DNA from: Alkalinema sp. FACHB-956
GTDB lineage: Bacteria > Cyanobacteriota > Cyanobacteriia > Leptolyngbyales > Leptolyngbyaceae
Length of the DNA: 64,000 bases
Reading direction: 5' to 3'
Assembly: GCF_014697025.1 (NCBI RefSeq)
Contig: NZ_JACJRC010000003.1
Coordinates: 248,001-312,000 of the forward strand
Part shown: positions 37,652-55,767 of the stretch, one piece after another
Numbering within the stretch: the stretch's first letter is position 1
How the letters are laid out: each line of letters begins with the position of its first letter
Made by a program: the position numbers and the translations under genes
Notes under the pieces: generated by a model
What the model saw: the letters and a program-made list of their open reading frames with translations, nothing else
Database searches by the model: none
Told to the model about the DNA's origin: nothing

Positions 37652-37999
37652 GCTGAACTCCTTCAGATAAGCAAAACCAGTAGTCGTGAAACCGTCACCC
37701 ACAATAGCAGATACAAATCCTTTCCGAACAGTAATACTGGTGACAAATCTGTGTCATTGATGTGTCATACCCCACCCATGTTGCAGAAAACCCATGTTGC
37801 AGAAAACCCATTTTGCCTCGGTGAGGTCTAGCCAAAGCTAGGTTCACGCTCATTCCCTAGGTTCACGCTCATTGGCCCTGATCCATCCGATCGTTATTCC
37901 AGCAGCCTACCTGTAGGAGTGGGTTCGATCGGGAAACTGCGAAGATTAATAGAAGTAAGAAGTATCTCGGTACGCTCCATCCTAGAACGAGAGGATTTC
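37652..37999. other. Divergent spacer with two tandem duplications
   Basis: A 348 bp spacer between the DUF2141 and TPR-CHAT genes. It holds a 15 bp tandem repeat (unit AAACCCATGTTGCAG, about 37775-37815) and a 21 bp direct repeat (CTAGGTTCACGCTCATT, about 37838-37874). Confidence 0.5.
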
Positions 38000-40900
38000 A
38001 TGGTTGACTCCCCGATGAACGCTGTCCCCAAACGGCTGCAACGGCTACAACGGCTGCAACGGATCGCGGCTAGCCTCAGTGCTGTGGTGATTCCGTTATC
38101 CGCCATTGGCAGTCCCCATATGCCTGGATCAACCCTAGGAAGTTTCGCCGCAGATCCCGCCAATCCCCAGCCCAGTCAACCGGAAAATTCGTTAGTCCAG
38201 CAGGCCAATAAACTCCAAGCAGAAGGAAAATTTAAAGACGCGATCGTGATCTGGCAACAGGTTTTGCAGCAGGCCCAAACGGCAAACGATCGTGCCCTGC
38301 AAAAGCTAGCCCTGTTTTCTTTAGGCAATGCCCTGAAGGATTTGAAGGACTATCCCGCAGCACTCGCCTATTACGATCGCGCCAAATTGCTAATTGAGCC
38401 AGATGGGAATCCGGAGGAATTAGGTCGCCTCTGGGCTGCCTTGGGGTTTGCCTACCGCGATGCAGGGCAACTGGAACAGGCGATTCCAGCATTGCAAAAA
38501 AGTGTGAAATTTAAGCAGCAGGCTCAGGATCGGTTTGGGGTAGGAGTGATCCTCCGGAGCCTTGGTAGACTCTACGAACAACAACGGAATTATTCAGAAG
38601 CGATCGCCTACTACCAGCGCAGTTTGGATGTTTTTGTTGCCCTCAAGGACTTCAAGTGGCAAGGGTTTGCTTGGAATGGCTTGGGCCGATCGTACAATGC
38701 CATGGGACAGCGCAAACAGGCGATCGCCGCTTTTCAGAAGAGTTTGCAACTGGCGCGCCAACAAAAGGATATTCAAGGGGAAGCGGACATTTTAACCAGC
38801 CTTGGAATCACGTTTAACGAAGCGGGACAACCCGCTAAGGCAGTGGAATATTTACAGCCTGCCTTGGGTCTGCATCGTAGTTTGAAATCACGGGTCGATG
38901 AGGCGAGGATACTGGTACAACTGGGATCAGCTAACCATGAATTAGGACAGAATACAATTGCGATCGACCAACTAAACCAAGGGCTTGCACTTGCTGAAGA
39001 AATTGGCAACAGCGCTATCAGAGTGAATGCATTGACGAATCTCGGAATTTTCTATCTCAATACGGGAAATCCCCAGAAGGCGTTAACACTATTTGAAACT
39101 GGATTACAGGAAGCCAAAAAACAGAAAAACTTGGCTCAGGAGCAGAATTTAATGAGTCAGTTGGGGGTCTTATATTCCCGCTTAGGCGAGCATCTCAAGG
39201 CGATCGAGTACATGCAAGGAAGTCGTGAACTCGCGAAAACACTGGGTGATCAAAGCATTGAAGCCGCAGAGCTGAATAATATTGGAACCATCTACTATGG
39301 GTTAGGGCAATATCGTCTGGCTTTGGATCATCATTTCAAATCACTAGAACTTGCGCGGAAACTGGGCGATCGTCAAATTGAAGGGTTCAATTTAGGGAGC
39401 ATTGGTATCATTTATAGAGCAGTACAAGATTATGAAAAAGCAATCCAGTATGCAGAAGAATGCCTCAAGATTGCACGGGAATTAAAAAATCCGATCGAAG
39501 AAGCCACCACCCTTTTAGATCTGGGATTAGCCTATCGCCAGATTGATTTAGCAAAAAGTACTCCTTACTTTCAGCAAGCCTTGGCATTGGCTGAGAAAAT
39601 TAACCACATTGGACTAGCTGGCAAAGCACGGGGCAATTTAGCTACCAATTACTTTGACGATCGCAACTATCAACAGGCTGCACCGCTGTTCCAAAAAAGT
39701 GTTGAAATTGCCGTCAAAACTGGAGACTTACGGGAGCAGGGGGTTGCCCTGACTAACTTAGGCCATACGCTTTTTCGGTTAAAACAATATTCTGCTGCTG
39801 AAAAAGCATTACAAGATAGTATTGCCATTTGGGAAATCCAACGGGCAGAGCTAAACCGAACGGATTACAGAAGTAGCGATCGCTATAAAATCTCGCTCTT
39901 TGAACGTCAACGCATTAGTTATCGGCTATTACAACAGGTTTTAGTCGCTGATCAGCGTCCAGAAATGGCACTAGAAACAGCAGAGCGTGGCAGGGCTAGG
40001 GCACTGATTGAATTAGTCGCACGGAAGCACCAAGGGAAAAATGCACCGGAAATTGCGCCCCCCACGATCGAGAGAATGAAGCAAACGGCAAAGGCCCTCA
40101 ATGCAACCTTGGTGTTCTATTCACTGATTTCCGATGATTTAAATGATGGCCCCAAGCCTGAATATGGGGATGCCTATGTTTATATTTGGGTTGTTTCTCC
40201 AGAAGGCATGGTCACATTCCGCCAATCGGATATCCGTCCGCTCTGGCAAAACGAGAAACTGAAGTTGAATGATTTAGTTCTAGGCAGTCGTCAATTACTA
40301 GGTGCACGGGGACGTAGCGGCATCAAAGTCGTTGCAGTCACTCCCCCCGAACGGGATTCTGAAGATGTTTTAAAAGCGCTCCATCAGATATTGATTAAAC
40401 CGATTCAAGCACAGTTGCCAGAAGATGAAAACGCATCTGTCATTATCATCCCCCAAGGTTTTCTATTTACCATTCCCTTCGCGGCCCTCCAGGATGAACA
40501 AAATCGATCGCTGATTGAACAACATACCTTACTCACTGCACCGTCGATTCAAGCTCTAGACCTGACCCTCGCATTGAAAAAATCAGCCCCATCAACGACA
40601 AATGCGATCGTCGTCGGGAATCCAGCGATGCCGAAAATTCAAGTTGCAGACGGAACAACCGAAGTGTTGGATGCACTACCAGGGGCCGAAGCCGAAGCCA
40701 AGGCGATCGCGCAAGTCCTGAATACCCAGCCGTTAATTGGAGCCCAAGCCCGCAAGTCCGAGGTCTTAAAACGCTTGCCCAAGGCGTCCATCATCCACTT
40801 TGCGACCCATGGGTTACTCGACGATTTCTACCAACGGGAATTTCCAGGAGCCATCGCCTTAGCGCCGGATCAACCGCAGCAGGTCAATGATGGACTGTTG

Positions 40901-41260
40901 ACGACGGATGAAATGTTGAATGAAAACTTTTCGCTCTCAGCGGATTTGGTGGTGTTGAGTGCCTGTGATACGGGGCGTGGACGCATTACGGGGGATGGCG
41001 TGGTGGGGCTATCCCGATCGCTGATTGCAGCCGGGGTTCCCAGTGTCGTTGTTTCGCTATGGGCTGTGTCTGATAACTCCACCTCCGATTTGATGCGATC
41101 GTTTTATCGTAATTTGCAATCGTTGCAACCTGCGCCTGGAACCGCCACAAATTTGAACTATAAAGCCCAAGCGCTGCGGCGCGCCATGCTAGAAACGAAG
41201 CAAAAGTATCCAGCCCCGTATCATTGGGCGGCCTTTACGTTGATTGGGCGGGGATTTTAG
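38000..41260 (+). CDS. TPR–CHAT domain protein (caspase-like, HetF-associated type)
   Basis: A 1086-residue protein. A GAGAGGA site precedes ATG 38000. An RLQRLQRLQR repeat (9 bp DNA unit) begins the protein, followed by a hydrophobic signal-like stretch (IAASLSAVVIPLSAIGS). About fourteen tetratricopeptide repeats occupy residues ~55-640 (for example ALAYYDRAKLL, AIAYYQRSLDVF, ALDHHFKSLELARKLGDRQIEG). The CHAT peptidase-like domain fills the C-terminal ~300 residues, with catalytic His in IIHFATHGLL (~935) and Cys in VVLSACDTGRG (~985), then GVVGLSRSLIAAG and VVVSLWAVSD. CHAT proteases act in heterocyst control (HetF) and in defence systems. Activity and partner here are unknown. The recQ-like gene begins 19 bp later. 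Confidence 0.9.
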   Translation: MVDSPMNAVPKRLQRLQRLQRIAASLSAVVIPLSAIGSPHMPGSTLGSFAADPANPQPSQPENSLVQQANKLQAEGKFKDAIVIWQQVLQQAQTANDRALQKLALFSLGNALKDLKDYPAALAYYDRAKLLIEPDGNPEELGRLWAALGFAYRDAGQLEQAIPALQKSVKFKQQAQDRFGVGVILRSLGRLYEQQRNYSEAIAYYQRSLDVFVALKDFKWQGFAWNGLGRSYNAMGQRKQAIAAFQKSLQLARQQKDIQGEADILTSLGITFNEAGQPAKAVEYLQPALGLHRSLKSRVDEARILVQLGSANHELGQNTIAIDQLNQGLALAEEIGNSAIRVNALTNLGIFYLNTGNPQKALTLFETGLQEAKKQKNLAQEQNLMSQLGVLYSRLGEHLKAIEYMQGSRELAKTLGDQSIEAAELNNIGTIYYGLGQYRLALDHHFKSLELARKLGDRQIEGFNLGSIGIIYRAVQDYEKAIQYAEECLKIARELKNPIEEATTLLDLGLAYRQIDLAKSTPYFQQALALAEKINHIGLAGKARGNLATNYFDDRNYQQAAPLFQKSVEIAVKTGDLREQGVALTNLGHTLFRLKQYSAAEKALQDSIAIWEIQRAELNRTDYRSSDRYKISLFERQRISYRLLQQVLVADQRPEMALETAERGRARALIELVARKHQGKNAPEIAPPTIERMKQTAKALNATLVFYSLISDDLNDGPKPEYGDAYVYIWVVSPEGMVTFRQSDIRPLWQNEKLKLNDLVLGSRQLLGARGRSGIKVVAVTPPERDSEDVLKALHQILIKPIQAQLPEDENASVIIIPQGFLFTIPFAALQDEQNRSLIEQHTLLTAPSIQALDLTLALKKSAPSTTNAIVVGNPAMPKIQVADGTTEVLDALPGAEAEAKAIAQVLNTQPLIGAQARKSEVLKRLPKASIIHFATHGLLDDFYQREFPGAIALAPDQPQQVNDGLLTTDEMLNENFSLSADLVVLSACDTGRGRITGDGVVGLSRSLIAAGVPSVVVSLWAVSDNSTSDLMRSFYRNLQSLQPAPGTATNLNYKAQALRRAMLETKQKYPAPYHWAAFTLIGRGF

Positions 41261-42891: not shown

Positions 42892-43695
42892 TCAAGGTTG
42901 CAGGAGAATATTTTTCCCATCACCTCCTAAAACAACGACCTTCGAGTTTTTCGAGTCTGCTAAGCGTTGCATTGCCTCAATTTGACGGAACTTCAGCACC
43001 GGTTCACTCAGACCCTGGGAAAGAATTTTTTGAGCATCCGCTTGCCCTTGGGCTTCAATCCGTTTTCGTTCCGCTTCTTGCTTCTCCTTAGTCAAAATAA
43101 ATTGCATCCGTTGACTCTCCTGATCCGCTTGCAGCTTGGCTTCGACACTTTGACGCAAATTCTCCGGCAAAGCCACGTTACGCAGGGGCGTATCTTCGAT
43201 CGTGATACCACGATTGGTCAAAATGGCGTTTAAGTCAGTACGAAGCTGTGTCGTTAAGGCTTGCCGCTGGGTTGTGTAGAGTTCCTGGGCGTTGTAGCGA
43301 GCAGTGGTATTGCGAATCAACGATCGCACCTGCGGGAGAACAATCACTTCTTGGTAATTCATCCCCACGGTTTGATAGATCTGGCTCGCTTGATTGGGAT
43401 CAAGACGATACAAAATACTGACATCAACCTCCATCATCAGTCCTTCCTTAGAGGGGGCTTGGGTTGTTTCTTTGATTTCCTGGGTCTGTACCGAGAGATG
43501 AACAACCTTGGACAAGGGATTTCTTAAATGGAGACCCGGTTGTAGCACTTTAGGAGAGACTTGCCCGAAGGTATCCACAACACCAACATGTCCTGCTGGC
43601 ACAACAGATACACAACGTAATAAAGTGACTAATCCTAGAAAACTGACGATAGAAATTCCCGCGATCGTGCGATAGGGGTGAGTGCGATTAATCAT
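42892..43695 (-). CDS. Prohibitin/SPFH-domain membrane protein
   Basis: A 267-residue protein. One N-terminal helix (IAGISIVSFLGLVTLL) anchors it. The SPFH/prohibitin domain runs from SVVPAGHVGVVDTFGQV to LRNVALPENLRQSVEAK. A coiled coil (QADQESQRMQFILTKEKQEA) and the Glu/Ala/Gln-rich tail follow, ending in VVVLGGDGKNILL. Prohibitins form ring-like scaffolds in membrane microdomains; the cyanobacterial homologue is Synechocystis Slr1106-like. ATG 43695. Confidence 0.92.
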   Translation of the reverse strand: MINRTHPYRTIAGISIVSFLGLVTLLRCVSVVPAGHVGVVDTFGQVSPKVLQPGLHLRNPLSKVVHLSVQTQEIKETTQAPSKEGLMMEVDVSILYRLDPNQASQIYQTVGMNYQEVIVLPQVRSLIRNTTARYNAQELYTTQRQALTTQLRTDLNAILTNRGITIEDTPLRNVALPENLRQSVEAKLQADQESQRMQFILTKEKQEAERKRIEAQGQADAQKILSQGLSEPVLKFRQIEAMQRLADSKNSKVVVLGGDGKNILLQP

Positions 43696-43895: not shown

Positions 43896-46577
43896 TCAAA
43901 CCACGCTACGGACTAGAATCACTGTACAGTTCGATCGACGAGCGATCTCTTCAGGAATATTGCCGCTCATCACTTGCTGTAGCAATCCTTCCCTTGTTGC
44001 CCCTAGCATAATCACATCGCATTGATTTTTGTCGGCTAAATCAATAATTGCGTCCGACACCGAAGCCGCACAGACTGTCACCGGAATCACCACTGCGGAG
44101 GTTCGGTTCTTCAGATAGCTGGTCTCTTTATCTAGATTAGGGAACGACCCAATGGCTTGCTGGGGACGAGATACATAACACAGACGAATTTCCGGTTGTT
44201 CAGACAGTTTGACTAGAAAAGGTAGAAGCTGAATTGCATCATGGGAATTTCCACCCCCCGCAGTGGGGACGAGCCAACGATCGAAGGCAGGAACTTGGAA
44301 TTGTGAATTTTGCAGAGGAAACTTCACTAAGATAACGCGGCAAGAAGCCTGTCGAATAATCGTATCAACAACACTGCCAAAAATACGATCGGGCGCATCA
44401 GTAACTCCTTTCCAACCCATTAATACCATGTCAATGTGTTGAGTCTGAATCACTTCTAAGATCGCTTGGGATACATCATGGGTTACGCGAATTTGGGTGT
44501 GAATGGGAATTTGCCAGTCTCGGCGTAGTTGATTGGTTTGCTTGAGTAACCGGCGGCTGGTAGCCGTGGAAACCGCGGTTTCTGCGGGAGAGCGGAGACG
44601 ACTGACGGGAATCACCTGCAAACATTCCAACTCGTAACGGCGACTTTTCGCGATCGCGGCTGCCATTTGGAGGAGAGGCCCTGCGGTTTTGGGATTGGCG
44701 ATAGGAACGAGTAACCGCCCCTGACCCACAGCGGGATCGCGGGTTTGGTAGACCACGTAAGACGGTTCTGGTTGCGGGCCAACGGCTTCGGTTTTGCCGC
44801 TCAGGCGATCGGTTTCTGCCCGAATAATATCCGCGCGGGTAATGATGCCCACCAGTTTGTAGCGATCGACCACAGGTAAGCGACTGAGTTTATAGCGATC
44901 GAGCCAAAATAATACTTGAGGTAAGGGATCGTGGGGCCGCACCGTCACGGGCTGTACCGTCATAATTGTGCTTAAGGGCAGGGATTCCTCTAATTTTTGC
45001 TGATTGATTTTGGCTAAATCCGTTTGCGTTACGATTCCTACTAATTGGCCCTCATCCACCACGGGAAAGCCTCGATGGTGCGATCGGGCAAAGGCTTGGG
45101 TGGCTTCTGTGAGGGACATTTGACTGGATAATGTTTCCACTCGCCGCTGCATAATATCTGCCGCTGTCAGCCCCACCAATCGGGACTCCATTTGCTGGAG
45201 GGGTTTGAGATGAATGCCATTCCAAGCCAAAACATATTTATAAATAGAACCGCTAGAAATCGCTTCTGCCACTAGATAGGATGACACAGATGCAATCATC
45301 AACGGCAACACCAGATCGAAATCTGTGGTCATTTCAAAGACAATCACGATCGCGGTAATGGGGCCACGGGTCACTGCACTAAAAAAAGCTGCCATCCCTG
45401 CCAAGGCGAAGGTGGTGGTATAACTCACTCCACTGCCCACCCCCAAGGGAATGCCCAGGGTATTTTGGAGTCCTAGGGCTCCGTAGCTCACGAGGTACCC
45501 CAAGGCAGATCCGAGCACCAGGGAGGGAGCAAATAATCCGCCGGGTGCGCCGGAGCTAAAGGCAATGAGGGTGAGTGCAAATTTTGCGATAAAAATCAGC
45601 AGCAGCATTTGCCAACTCAATTCGCTGGTAATCCACACAGATTGCAAACTTGCGTTATTGCGCAGAATGGTGGGCAAGGTGGCGATGACGGCTCCGGATA
45701 TCAAACCCGCCAGACCAACGCGCCACGGGAGTCCTAACCGAAGACGACGATTCAAGCGGAGGCCGAGGAGCAGCCCCCGAATTAAGCCAATGCCCAGTAC
45801 CCCCGCGATCGCACCTAGGAGAATTAACAGCGGAATCGTGGAAACTGAAAAATAGGGATAGATATCCATTAAATTGGGTGTCAGGGGCAGTTCCTCTCCC
45901 CCGAGGACGCGGGACACCACCGCCCCAATGAAAGAGGCTAAAATGGCCGTCCCAAGGGTCAGTCCGGAAACATCTTGCAGCAATTCTTCAATAACAAATA
46001 AAACCCCTGCGATCGGAGCGTTGAATCCGGCAGCCAGTCCAGCGGCGGCTCCCGCTGCCAGCAATTGCCGACGGTGATCGGGGGAGGTGGGGAGCCATTG
46101 ACTCAGTTGTCCCGCGATCGCGGCTCCTATTTGCACGGTGGGGCCTTGGCGACCGAGGCTCAAGCCCGAGCCGAGGGAAATCAGAGTGCTAGCCAGTTTG
46201 ACTAGGGCCACTCGGGTATTCAGGGTGATGGGAATATAGCCCAAGGCGGCTTTGACCTGGGGGATGCCACTGCCAGCAGCTTCAGGGGCAAAGCGTTCGA
46301 TCGTGTAGCCTGCGAGAAATCCTCCAATTCCCCCAATTACGGGCAAGATCAGCCAGTCGGGATACAGGGTTGCCATTTGTAGCCGCCCGCTCCCCAGCCA
46401 ACCCACCCCTTGTTTGAGGCAAACTGCCGCCAGACCAGAAATCACCCCAATTAACCCCGCTTCCACGATCGCCATCTGGCGCGGACGAATCTTTTGCTGC
46501 AACCGATTCAGGTTAATCTGGTGCCAAGCTGATCGAAGGAGGTGGAATCGCGATCGGGGCTGGGGATCTACCATCAT
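43896..46577 (-). CDS. ClC-family chloride channel/transporter fused to CBS and Usp domains
   Basis: An 893-residue fusion. The ClC membrane part (about residues 30-450) has GSGIPQVKAAL, LGRQGPTVQIGA and FNAPIAGVLFVIEELL. Two CBS domains follow (about 470-590, AADIMQRRVETLSS and VGIVTQTDLAK; then STIMTVQPVTVRP and VGIITRADII). Two universal-stress-protein domains end the protein. The first Usp (about 620-745) keeps the ATP-binding G-2x-G-9x-G-S pattern; the second is degenerate. The residue at the gating-glutamate position of GREGP is Gln (codon CAA). ClC proteins move chloride; CBS and Usp domains usually sense adenine nucleotides. A GGAGGG site supports ATG 46577, although the frame is open to 46631. 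Convergent with nothing; the prohibitin gene lies downstream on the same strand. Confidence 0.93.
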   Translation of the reverse strand: MMVDPQPRSRFHLLRSAWHQINLNRLQQKIRPRQMAIVEAGLIGVISGLAAVCLKQGVGWLGSGRLQMATLYPDWLILPVIGGIGGFLAGYTIERFAPEAAGSGIPQVKAALGYIPITLNTRVALVKLASTLISLGSGLSLGRQGPTVQIGAAIAGQLSQWLPTSPDHRRQLLAAGAAAGLAAGFNAPIAGVLFVIEELLQDVSGLTLGTAILASFIGAVVSRVLGGEELPLTPNLMDIYPYFSVSTIPLLILLGAIAGVLGIGLIRGLLLGLRLNRRLRLGLPWRVGLAGLISGAVIATLPTILRNNASLQSVWITSELSWQMLLLIFIAKFALTLIAFSSGAPGGLFAPSLVLGSALGYLVSYGALGLQNTLGIPLGVGSGVSYTTTFALAGMAAFFSAVTRGPITAIVIVFEMTTDFDLVLPLMIASVSSYLVAEAISSGSIYKYVLAWNGIHLKPLQQMESRLVGLTAADIMQRRVETLSSQMSLTEATQAFARSHHRGFPVVDEGQLVGIVTQTDLAKINQQKLEESLPLSTIMTVQPVTVRPHDPLPQVLFWLDRYKLSRLPVVDRYKLVGIITRADIIRAETDRLSGKTEAVGPQPEPSYVVYQTRDPAVGQGRLLVPIANPKTAGPLLQMAAAIAKSRRYELECLQVIPVSRLRSPAETAVSTATSRRLLKQTNQLRRDWQIPIHTQIRVTHDVSQAILEVIQTQHIDMVLMGWKGVTDAPDRIFGSVVDTIIRQASCRVILVKFPLQNSQFQVPAFDRWLVPTAGGGNSHDAIQLLPFLVKLSEQPEIRLCYVSRPQQAIGSFPNLDKETSYLKNRTSAVVIPVTVCAASVSDAIIDLADKNQCDVIMLGATREGLLQQVMSGNIPEEIARRSNCTVILVRSVV

Positions 46578-53133: not shown

Positions 53134-55767
53134 ATGGCAAGAGTCGTTGGAATCGACCTAGGCACTACTAATTCCGTCGTCGCCGTGATGGAAGGCGGGA
53201 AACCCGTCGTCATCGCTAACGTCGAAGGCATGCGCACGACTCCTTCCGTAGTAGGCATCAGCAAGGATGGCGAACGGCTGGTCGGTCAGATGGCTCGCCG
53301 TCAAGCGGTTCTGGATCCGCAAAATACCTTCTACGGGATCAAACGCTTTGTCGGACGCAAGTACAGCGAACTGACGCCACAATCCAAGCAAGTTCCCTAC
53401 ACTGTGCGGCGGGACGATCGCGGCAATGTCCGCGTCAACTGTCCCCGCTTAGATAAAGATTTTGCGCCGGAGGAAATTTCCGCTATGGTGCTGCGGAAGT
53501 TGGCCGAAGAAGCTAGCCGCTACCTGGGCGAACCTGTGACAGGCGCGGTCATCACCGTCCCGGCGTACTTCAACGACTCCCAGCGGCAGGCCACCCGTGA
53601 TGCGGGCCGGATTGCCGGATTGGAAGTCAAACGGATTTTGAATGAACCCACCGCTGCCTCCTTGGCCTACGGCCTCGATCGTCGCCAGAATGAACTGGTG
53701 CTGGTCTTTGACCTCGGGGGCGGTACGTTTGACGTGTCGGTGTTGGAAGTGGGCGATGGCGTCTTTGAAGTGCGATCGACCAGTGGCGATACCCAACTGG
53801 GCGGCGGCGACTTTGATATGGCGATCGTGAATTGGCTGGCCGATGAATTTCTGGAAGCGGAAGGCATTGACCTGCGCAAGGATCGGCAATCCCTACAACG
53901 GCTGACGGAAGCGGCGGAAAAGGCCAAGATCGAACTCTCCGGTGTCAACGTTACCGACATTAATCTACCCTTTATCACCGCCACCGCCGATGGCCCCAAG
54001 CACATCGAAACCCGCCTCACCCGATCGCAGTTTGAAGGACTGTGTAATGATCTACTGAGTCGGATCCGGATGCCCGTGAAGCAGGCGCTGCGGGATGCGG
54101 GACTGGGGCCGATGGACATTGACGAAGTGGTGCTCGTGGGTGGCGGAACTCGGATGCCCATGGTGCAGGATATTGTGCGGAATATTTTGGGTCGGGAACC
54201 CAATCAAAACGTTAATCCCGATGAAGTTGTGGCGATCGGGGCGGCGATTCAGGCTGGCGTCCTAGCGGGCGAACTCAAGGATATTCTGCTGCTGGATGTG
54301 ACCCCCGTGTCGATCGGGCTGGAAACTGTGGGCGGCGTGATGAAAAAGCTGATCCCCCGCAACACGACCATTCCGGTACGGCGGACAGACATTTTCTCCA
54401 CATCGGAAGATAATCAGACCTCCGTGGAAATCAACGTGGTTCAAGGCGAACGGGAAATGGCCAACGGCAACAAATCCCTCGGTCGCTTCAAACTCATGGG
54501 CATTCCCCCGGCTCCCCGAGGCATTCCCCAGGTGCAGGTGTCCTTTGATATTGATGCCAACGGGATTCTGCAAGTGACTGCTATGGATCGCACGACGGGT
54601 CGTGAGCAAAGTATCACGATTCAAGGAGCCTCCACCCTGGGCGAGGACGAAGTGCAAATGATGCTGCGGGATGCGGAACTATATGCCGATACCGATCGCC
54701 TGCGCAAGGAAAAGGTAGAGAAGCGCAACCGGGCTGAGGAACTGGCCTTGAAGGCAGAACGGCAACTGCGGGAAGCCACCTTGGACTTCGGTATGAATTT
54801 TGTTTCGCCCTACCGCAATCGGATTGAGCCACTGGTACAAAAGCTGCGCCAAGCCCTGAAAGATGGAGACGATCGCCTAATTGACATCACCGAAGCAGAT
54901 CTGCGAGATGTGCTGTATGACCTGCGATCGGAGGTTTATGACCTCAACCAAGAGCAGGAACAGGAGGGTGGTTTCTTCAAGGCAGTGAAGGACTTCTTCC
55001 TGGACGAGGACGACGACTATTACAACGATTACAATCGCCGCGATCCCTACGATTACAATCGAGGCTCCTATAACTATGGCGGGGGCAATTATGGTGGCGG
55101 GTATAATGAACCGCCGCGATCGCTCCCCTATAGCCGCAACCCGTCCTTTGATGAGTGGACTGGCGGCGGACGCAATCGATCGACTGATAGCTACGGTTCC
55201 GCTAGCAGTTACGGCACTGGTTCAAGTAGCACAGGCGCAGGCGGATCCAGCTCAAGCAGCTATGGCAATCGGGGGGACGTGGATAGCCGCGATCGACGCG
55301 ATCGGGACAGTCGAGACAGCTATGGCCGGGACAGTCGGGATAGCCGGGACAGCCGAGATGGCTATAACCGGGATGCCTATGGTCGGGATGCCTCCAATCG
55401 AAATACCTATCAAGGCTCTGATAACCGGGATTACAACAACCGAGATTACAACAGCCGAGATTACGATAATTACGATAATCCAAGCTATTCCGATCGCGGC
55501 TATGACAATCGCAACCTAGAGCGTAACCTAGATCGTGATCCGGGTCGCAATCCCGATCGCAACCCAGATCGCGGCTATCGTGATCTGTCCGATCGGGATC
55601 GTTCCCGTGACGGATATCCCGATCAGGAAACGGGTTACTATGATGCTTCGCCACGCCGCAATGATGATGCTTACGACGATCGCCGCCGATCGGCCAATTC
55701 CCGACGGCGTCCTGAAAAACCCAGTTACGAGTATGACAATTGGGATGAAGAAGATGATTGGATGTAA
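53134..55767 (+). CDS. dnaK3: DnaK-type chaperone with long disordered Asp/Arg/Tyr/Asn-rich tail (DnaK3-like)
   Basis: An 877-residue Hsp70. The ATPase domain (residues 1-~380) starts [15 protein letters not shown] with phosphate-2 loop [14 protein letters not shown] and [13 protein letters not shown]. The substrate-binding domain has [18 protein letters not shown] and helical lid up to ~620. From ~625 the EEVD-type end is replaced by about 250 residues of low complexity ([45 protein letters not shown]), ending in an acidic-aromatic WDEEDDWM. The dnaJ-like gene follows in the same direction; in Synechocystis the DnaK3/DnaJ3 genes are linked the same way, which is why I use dnaK3. DnaK3-type proteins carry C-terminal extensions and are reported as membrane-associated. 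GAGGAG lies upstream of ATG 53134. Confidence 0.93.

Follow-up and report, generated by a model that had tools for sequence, protein, structure and literature searches.

The CLC protein encoded in our window, a stretch of 64,000 nucleotides from Alkalinema sp. FACHB-956, carries Gln in place of the gating glutamate (Gluex). It belongs to a cyanobacterial family in which this residue has changed repeatedly between Gln and Glu, and once to Arg. We think that the protein probably works as a CLC dimer and lets anions leak slowly, in a regulated, proton-uncoupled and transporter-like manner, which would set it apart from fast channels.

The gate motif had been read as GRQGP instead of GREGP, with a CAA codon, and this is what the minus-strand open reading frame encodes (Table 1). 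An upstream TTG start in the same frame would yield a protein of 911 aa. Pfam places Voltage_CLC (PF00654) at residues 85-437 (1.8e-90), followed by the two CBS and two Usp stretches that were expected in this one protein. The AF2 model, built from 56 sequences, has a mean pLDDT of 89. Its membrane part aligns with CLC-ec1 (1ots) over 411 residues with an rmsd of 2.4 and a Z score of 51.3 (VIA-align). The fold and the filter motifs GSGIP and GGLFAP make the protein a member of the CLC superfamily. The CBS and Usp assignments rest on Pfam and the AF2 model; the VIA structure matches concern the membrane domain. Relatives share this build: among 57 diverse proteins, including ours, Pfam finds CLC in 57, CBS in 57 and Usp in 56. 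The CLC-Usp fusion itself is already known, since a review of Usp proteins lists Voltage-CLC among the Usp-associated domains in a figure legend (PMC3673472).

Table 1. Features of the CLC-CBS-Usp gene and its product (positions in the window; residues in the protein numbering)
Feature	Position	Strand	Evidence
CLC-CBS-CBS-Usp-Usp gene, 893 aa from ATG	43896..46577	(-)	ORF, Pfam, AF2 model
CLC membrane domain, residues about 30-458	45204..46490	(-)	VIA-align to 1ots, Pfam PF00654
Ser103 = CLC-ec1 S107, central Cl- site	46269..46271	(-)	Alignment; Gly in 22/22 Arg-gate relatives
Gln144, codon CAA, at the gating-glutamate (Gluex) position, CLC-ec1 E148	46146..46148	(-)	Alignment, DNA motif match
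Gly184 = CLC-ec1 A189, co-varies with gate	46026..46028	(-)	Alignment, counts, pair scan
Glu198 = CLC-ec1 E203 (Gluin, internal proton glutamate), kept	45984..45986	(-)	Alignment
Phe349 = CLC-ec1 F357, central Phe	45531..45533	(-)	Alignment
Tyr446 = CLC-ec1 Y445, inner gate	45240..45242	(-)	Alignment
CBS pair, residues about 473-592, T517-x-x-D520 and T580-x-x-D583	44802..45161	(-)	Pfam, model, family counts
Usp domain 1, residues 621-752	44322..44717	(-)	Pfam
Usp1 motif G-2x-G-9x-G-S, residues 721-735	44373..44417	(-)	Sequence
Usp domain 2, residues about 767-893, motif degenerate	43899..44279	(-)	Second Pfam Usp stretch; strands and helices in model; sequence reading

A scan of genome_contigs found one locus only. 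The genome that contains the window also encodes a second CLC without Usp, which has a gate Glu and Val at the position of the internal glutamate. A second CLC of this type (gate Glu, Val at Gluin) forms the upstream ORF at three loci of family f1 (L048, L050, L051). We found no conserved functional neighbour of the CLC-CBS-Usp gene at 62 loci; the commonest neighbour is a PmbA/TldD-like ORF upstream, at 16 of the 62 (Pfam was run on one such ORF). Elsewhere in the window lie a TPR-CHAT protein of 1113 aa, a caspase-like domain behind tetratricopeptide repeats (37919-41260, plus strand), and a long Hsp70 of 877 aa (53134-55767, plus strand). The Pfam match of this Hsp70 ends at residue 602, leaving a C-terminal extension of about 275 aa, and a DnaJ gene follows it.

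Gln at the gate is not a peculiarity of this genome. The original prediction had called for an alignment of cyanobacterial ClC-CBS-Usp proteins at this position, and among 167 readable relatives the gate is Gln in 115, Glu in 30 and Arg in 22. We chose these relatives by hand, aiming for diversity and including genomes that hold two matches, and their proportions are therefore not population frequencies. The 167 leave out 16 ORFs without the gate region, fragments (three with Gln, one with Arg) and a copy of the window gene (L003); removing four short Gln sequences leaves 163 full-length members. The Gln codon is CAG in 59 and CAA in 56 of the 115 Gln proteins. Because Gln is found in 115 of 167 relatives and through both codons, we exclude chance or sequencing error as the source of Gln144. 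The number of gate events is far smaller than these counts, because the Glu proteins include close relatives.

Within the class, 263 of 388 sampled genomes have a protein match at E <= 1e-60. These matches include at least three short CLCs that lack Usp and come from one family (f2; L121-L123). When the Gln form of the motif was turned into a degenerate DNA pattern, it matched 72 of 386 genomes sampled across the phylum, at most once per genome. It has no match among the listed genomes outside the class, and a reversed control pattern has none in the table. Beyond the class we found two loci of the same phylum and seven plasmid CLCs from Pseudomonadota and Bacillota. All seven read Glu at the gate, four as GREGP and three as GAEG, a string that was taken by eye to be the gate. 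A search of 28 genomes for every CLC gave a single match, the Usp-CLC, in some that are nearly closed; they include G150, G157, G164 and G300 with gate Arg and G005 and G008 with gate Gln. Some loci are unusual in other ways. A gate-Glu CLC-CBS-Usp copy (L184) lies near rppA/rppB on the Nostoc sp. C052 plasmid pC052_A, which is typed as conjugative. Two genomes (G073, G095) hold one gate-Gln and one gate-Glu copy each. In three genomes the gene is split into two adjacent matches in separate frames of one contig, possibly by frameshift or decay (L118 in G007, L146 in G237, L147 in G309). The portions of the open-access (PMC) literature that we consulted do not describe prokaryotic CLCs with a natural Gln or Arg gate, and we found no open-access PMC paper with the motif string GRQGP.

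How often has the gate changed? We built a bootstrapped tree of 70 sequences from residues 28-592, with the gate and pathway columns removed. It is rooted on L188 and L189, CLC-CBS proteins that belong to other Cyanobacteriota classes and are the closest relatives found outside the class. Both (38-39% identity) have gate Glu, Ala184, Glu198 and Phe349, and they differ from our protein in the gate Glu, the Ala184 and the lack of Usp by Pfam. The tree needs 9 gate changes, bootstrap trees need 8-10 for Gln, and at least 5 changes are forced by the starred branches. Two other trees need 9 and 10. Forcing the Glu proteins into one clade is rejected (p-AU 2e-8). The Arg proteins form one clade with support 100/100 in the 70-sequence tree.

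Under two simple Mk models the family ancestor is Gln at 0.76 and 0.86, with a root that rests on weak deep branches. The ancestor of L114 and L141, a well-supported pair, is Gln at 0.98 and 0.95, and the models place L114 as a return to Glu. The ancestor of the L040 group is Glu at 0.78 and 0.73. Since L114 reverts to Glu while the L040 group descends from a Glu ancestor, gate changes run in both directions. L114 (gate Glu, Ala184) and L141 (gate Gln, Gly184) are a natural pair from genomes assigned to one genus (g114), identical at 315 of 417 membrane-domain residues.

A second position moves with the gate. Residue 184 is Gly in 99/115 Gln and 21/22 Arg proteins and in 0/30 Glu proteins, where Ala (19) or Ser (11) takes its place. 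Loci that were added after the pattern had been spotted, some of them close kin, show Gly184 in 26/27 Gln, 12/12 Arg and 0/12 Glu proteins. In a scan of phylogenetically independent pairs over 394 columns (residues 30-460), position 184 ranks first against the 393 others, with a net score of 5.1 of 7 (next 4.2). The site was chosen from the same data as tested, and the median p of its pair test is 0.03 on a 170-sequence tree and 0.0625 on two smaller trees, with no opposite pair. The link is not universal: a different group of cyanobacterial CLCs (L002, L190, L191) combines Gly here with a gate Glu. Within the family, 15/115 Gln proteins keep Ala184. Positions 140, 332 and 350 gave suggestive raw counts, and were dropped on sign-test medians of 0.5, 1 and 0.5. 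In CLC-ec1, A189 lines the proton path (PMC12873427), and its backbone bonds the protonated Gluex once this has swung out (PMC7274781). From the family we predict a role for the A189 position in the way an uncharged gate is accommodated.

Our mapping of residues assumes that the behaviour of CLC-ec1 carries over at about 30% identity. The best sequence matches in the PDB are engineered CLC-ec1 mutants, 2exy and 1otu, about one bit above the wild-type entries. Both carry E148Q, 1otu according to its title and 2exy according to its sequence letters. Like our protein, this mutant has a Gln gate and the same fold (Z 50.0 for 1otu), but it is made in the lab, lacks CBS and Usp and has Ala at the A189 site instead of Gly184. 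SycClC (Sll0855 of Synechocystis, PDB 3nd0) is also a cyanobacterial CLC of the same fold (Z 49.6). It differs in that its PDB title calls it a slow Cl-/H+ antiporter and the solved chain of 466 aa is without CBS and Usp.

Loss of the gating glutamate has precedents in eukaryotes. Mammalian CLC-K channels naturally lack it (PMC6019066, PMC5362633), but they are animal channels with a wider inner pore. Their gate residue is Val. In plants, CLC-G lacks the gating Glu, and CLC-E and CLC-F lack the proton Glu (PMC7733266); AtCLCe has the gating Glu and misses the proton Glu (PMC4746265). Plant CLC-G thus shares the missing gating Glu with our protein and differs in its lineage. The combination seen in our protein is reversed in seven relatives (L099, L137, L139, L140, L079, L091, L166), which keep the gate Glu and have Ala, Gln or Val in place of the internal proton glutamate.

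The original prediction of a nucleotide-gated chloride channel holds in part: the gate acid is gone, and neither the pore of our protein nor the Usp motif of the family fits it well. For a fast channel of this kind, Gln would hold the external gate open, and ATP or AMP bound to CBS or Usp would open the pore. We consider this unlikely. The channel features given by Park and MacKinnon are a gate that is absent or held open, small polar residues at the F348 and I356 sites that lower the inner barrier, and weak Cl- binding at the central site (PMC6019066). Gln144 would provide the first. In place of the second, our protein has the large hydrophobic residues of a transporter, F340 and L348, which correspond to F348 and I356 of CLC-ec1. 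Each of the 113 Gln proteins with a residue at the I356 site has Leu, Ile or Val. The F348 site is more variable, with Tyr in 51, Phe in 30, Cys in 18 and Ala in 7 of 114 Gln proteins, and Ala in 8/22 Arg proteins. The 29/114 Gln proteins with Cys, Ala, Ser or Thr here do favour a channel, and judged by this residue these relatives may be faster and more channel-like than ours.

The cytoplasmic domains give a similarly divided picture. One Usp domain was said to keep an ATP-type motif, and indeed Usp1 reads G721-WK-G724-9x-G734-S735, while Usp2 fails the pattern by inspection; by sequence, a UspFG-type ATP-binding pattern would thus be present in Usp1 only. Across the full-length relatives the strict motif (G-2x-G-9x-G-S/T) is infrequent, with 27/111 Gln, 4/30 Glu and 5/22 Arg proteins, and allowing Asn at the last position raises this to 61/111, 6/30 and 7/22. 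In contrast, 162/163 full-length members retain CBS aspartate 520, and as many retain aspartate 583. Because the strict Usp motif is infrequent and the CBS aspartates are near-invariant, any control by nucleotides is more likely to be exerted via CBS. Support for gating by ATP at Usp is weak, and nucleotides more likely bind the CBS pair. According to a 2026 paper (PMC12873427), what such domains do in prokaryotic CLCs has yet to be investigated.

Could the protein still be proton-coupled, with another acid taking over from Gluex, for example E197 and E198 with a water wire? The proton side of the pathway is well kept. The internal glutamate, E198, is present in our protein, in 112/115 Gln, 22/22 Arg and 23/30 Glu proteins. 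F349 is retained in 112/113 Gln proteins with a residue there, 21/22 Arg and 16/30 Glu proteins. E197 occurs in 115/115 Gln proteins, which also retain both aromatic-slide Phe residues. Proton-side residues are thus more conserved in gateless than in gated proteins, with the Glu proteins representing few lineages. E198 and F349 would be dispensable in a pure leak, so their retention counts against one; a structural or pH-sensing role in the gateless proteins is possible.

A nearby acid in the role of the glutamate would speak against uncoupling, and we found no convincing one in the acidic columns of residues 30-460, in the first 115 sequences and then in all 167. Only columns 313 and 371 are acidic in at least half of the Gln but less than half of the Glu proteins. 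Column 313 is acidic in 73/114 Gln and 10/30 Glu proteins of the 167, and column 371, an insertion absent from Glu and Arg proteins, in 32 of the 61 Gln proteins that have it. Our protein has Ser313 and Gln371, and we rejected both. In the first 115 sequences the columns richer in acid were 99 (0.98 in Gln against 0.78 in Glu proteins) and 202 (1.0 against 0.89). Where CLC-ec1 has E113 and D54, most proteins of each of the three groups have Lys, and E148Q by itself uncouples CLC-ec1 (PMC5362633). Continued coupling is accordingly a reading to which we give little credence. The original prediction that Gln here would uncouple proton movement is well supported by inference, with the gate acid absent, Gln conserved in most relatives, no convincing replacement acid found and position 184 co-adapted.

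It is also improbable that the pathway conducts another anion (nitrate, bicarbonate or another) with Cl- selectivity being incidental. Fluxes of bicarbonate and nitrate are large in cyanobacteria, and the central site has changed in part of the family: it is Gly in 22/22 Arg proteins versus 3/145 Gln or Glu proteins. Fluoride exchangers of the CLC-F type are marked by an altered central-site Ser and a fluoride riboswitch. Our protein has Ser103, and no Rfam family reaches its gathering score between positions 43000 and 48000 of the window. Ser, the Cl- form of the filter at this site (PMC5362633), is present in our protein and in 113/115 Gln proteins, which argues against another anion.

In the Arg clade the change to Gly is tied to the gate. 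The Arg gate arose once, together with Ser107-to-Gly (CLC-ec1 numbering), and its motif is mostly GRRGP or GRRAP (L075, L098, L103, L104, L107, L109, L112, L115, L116, L120 and later sequences). E209, M200 and T187 are fixed in the first ten Arg proteins. Central Ser to Gly in CLC-ec1 doubled the Cl- flux and cut coupling 3-fold (PMC6019066). The CLC domain might instead be a transport-dead sensor with a vestigial pore that serves only to anchor the CBS-Usp module. This would apply most of all to the Arg clade, where 2/22 proteins have lost the inner-gate Tyr to Asp or Glu. Such a sensor is hardly credible given that the K131 and F190 equivalents are each invariant in 115/115 Gln proteins and Tyr446 in the 111/111 with a residue there. 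The buried Lys at the K131 position is retained in all 167.

The slow, uncoupled leak is the reading we prefer, and it would work as follows. Gln144 would imitate a permanently protonated Gluex, sitting out of the anion path and carrying no protons. Chloride or a similar anion would then run down its electrochemical gradient without proton exchange. Throughput would probably be low, as in the CLC-ec1 E148Q leak, because our protein keeps the transporter-like hydrophobic residues of the inner pore. The CBS pair in the cytoplasm would probably determine opening, with the Usp pair as a modulator, and this would tie the leak to the adenylate or stress state. Where the gate toggles between Gln and Glu, with position 184 mostly following from Gly to Ala or Ser, some relatives may have regained coupling.

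For annotation, the consequence is direct. Gate Glu, E198 and F349 occur together in only 13 of the 163 full-length members, and labelling these genes as Cl-/H+ exchangers is therefore unsafe. For the family as a whole we offer a tentative picture, which we hold less firmly than the leak in our own protein. One CLC family may have toggled proton coupling repeatedly, by a one-base change between Gln and Glu at the gate and a co-adapted change between Gly and Ala or Ser at the A189 site. One clade would have reached a fixed positive charge (Arg gate and S107G), a third state of the external gate, and the gateless protein would be the sole CLC found in some nearly closed genomes. What separates exchangers from leaks and channels is a long-standing question in CLCs and has been studied mostly via engineered mutants. 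This family supplies natural pairs, such as L114 and L141, and an Arg-gate clade as test cases for the passage from a coupled pump to a passive leak.
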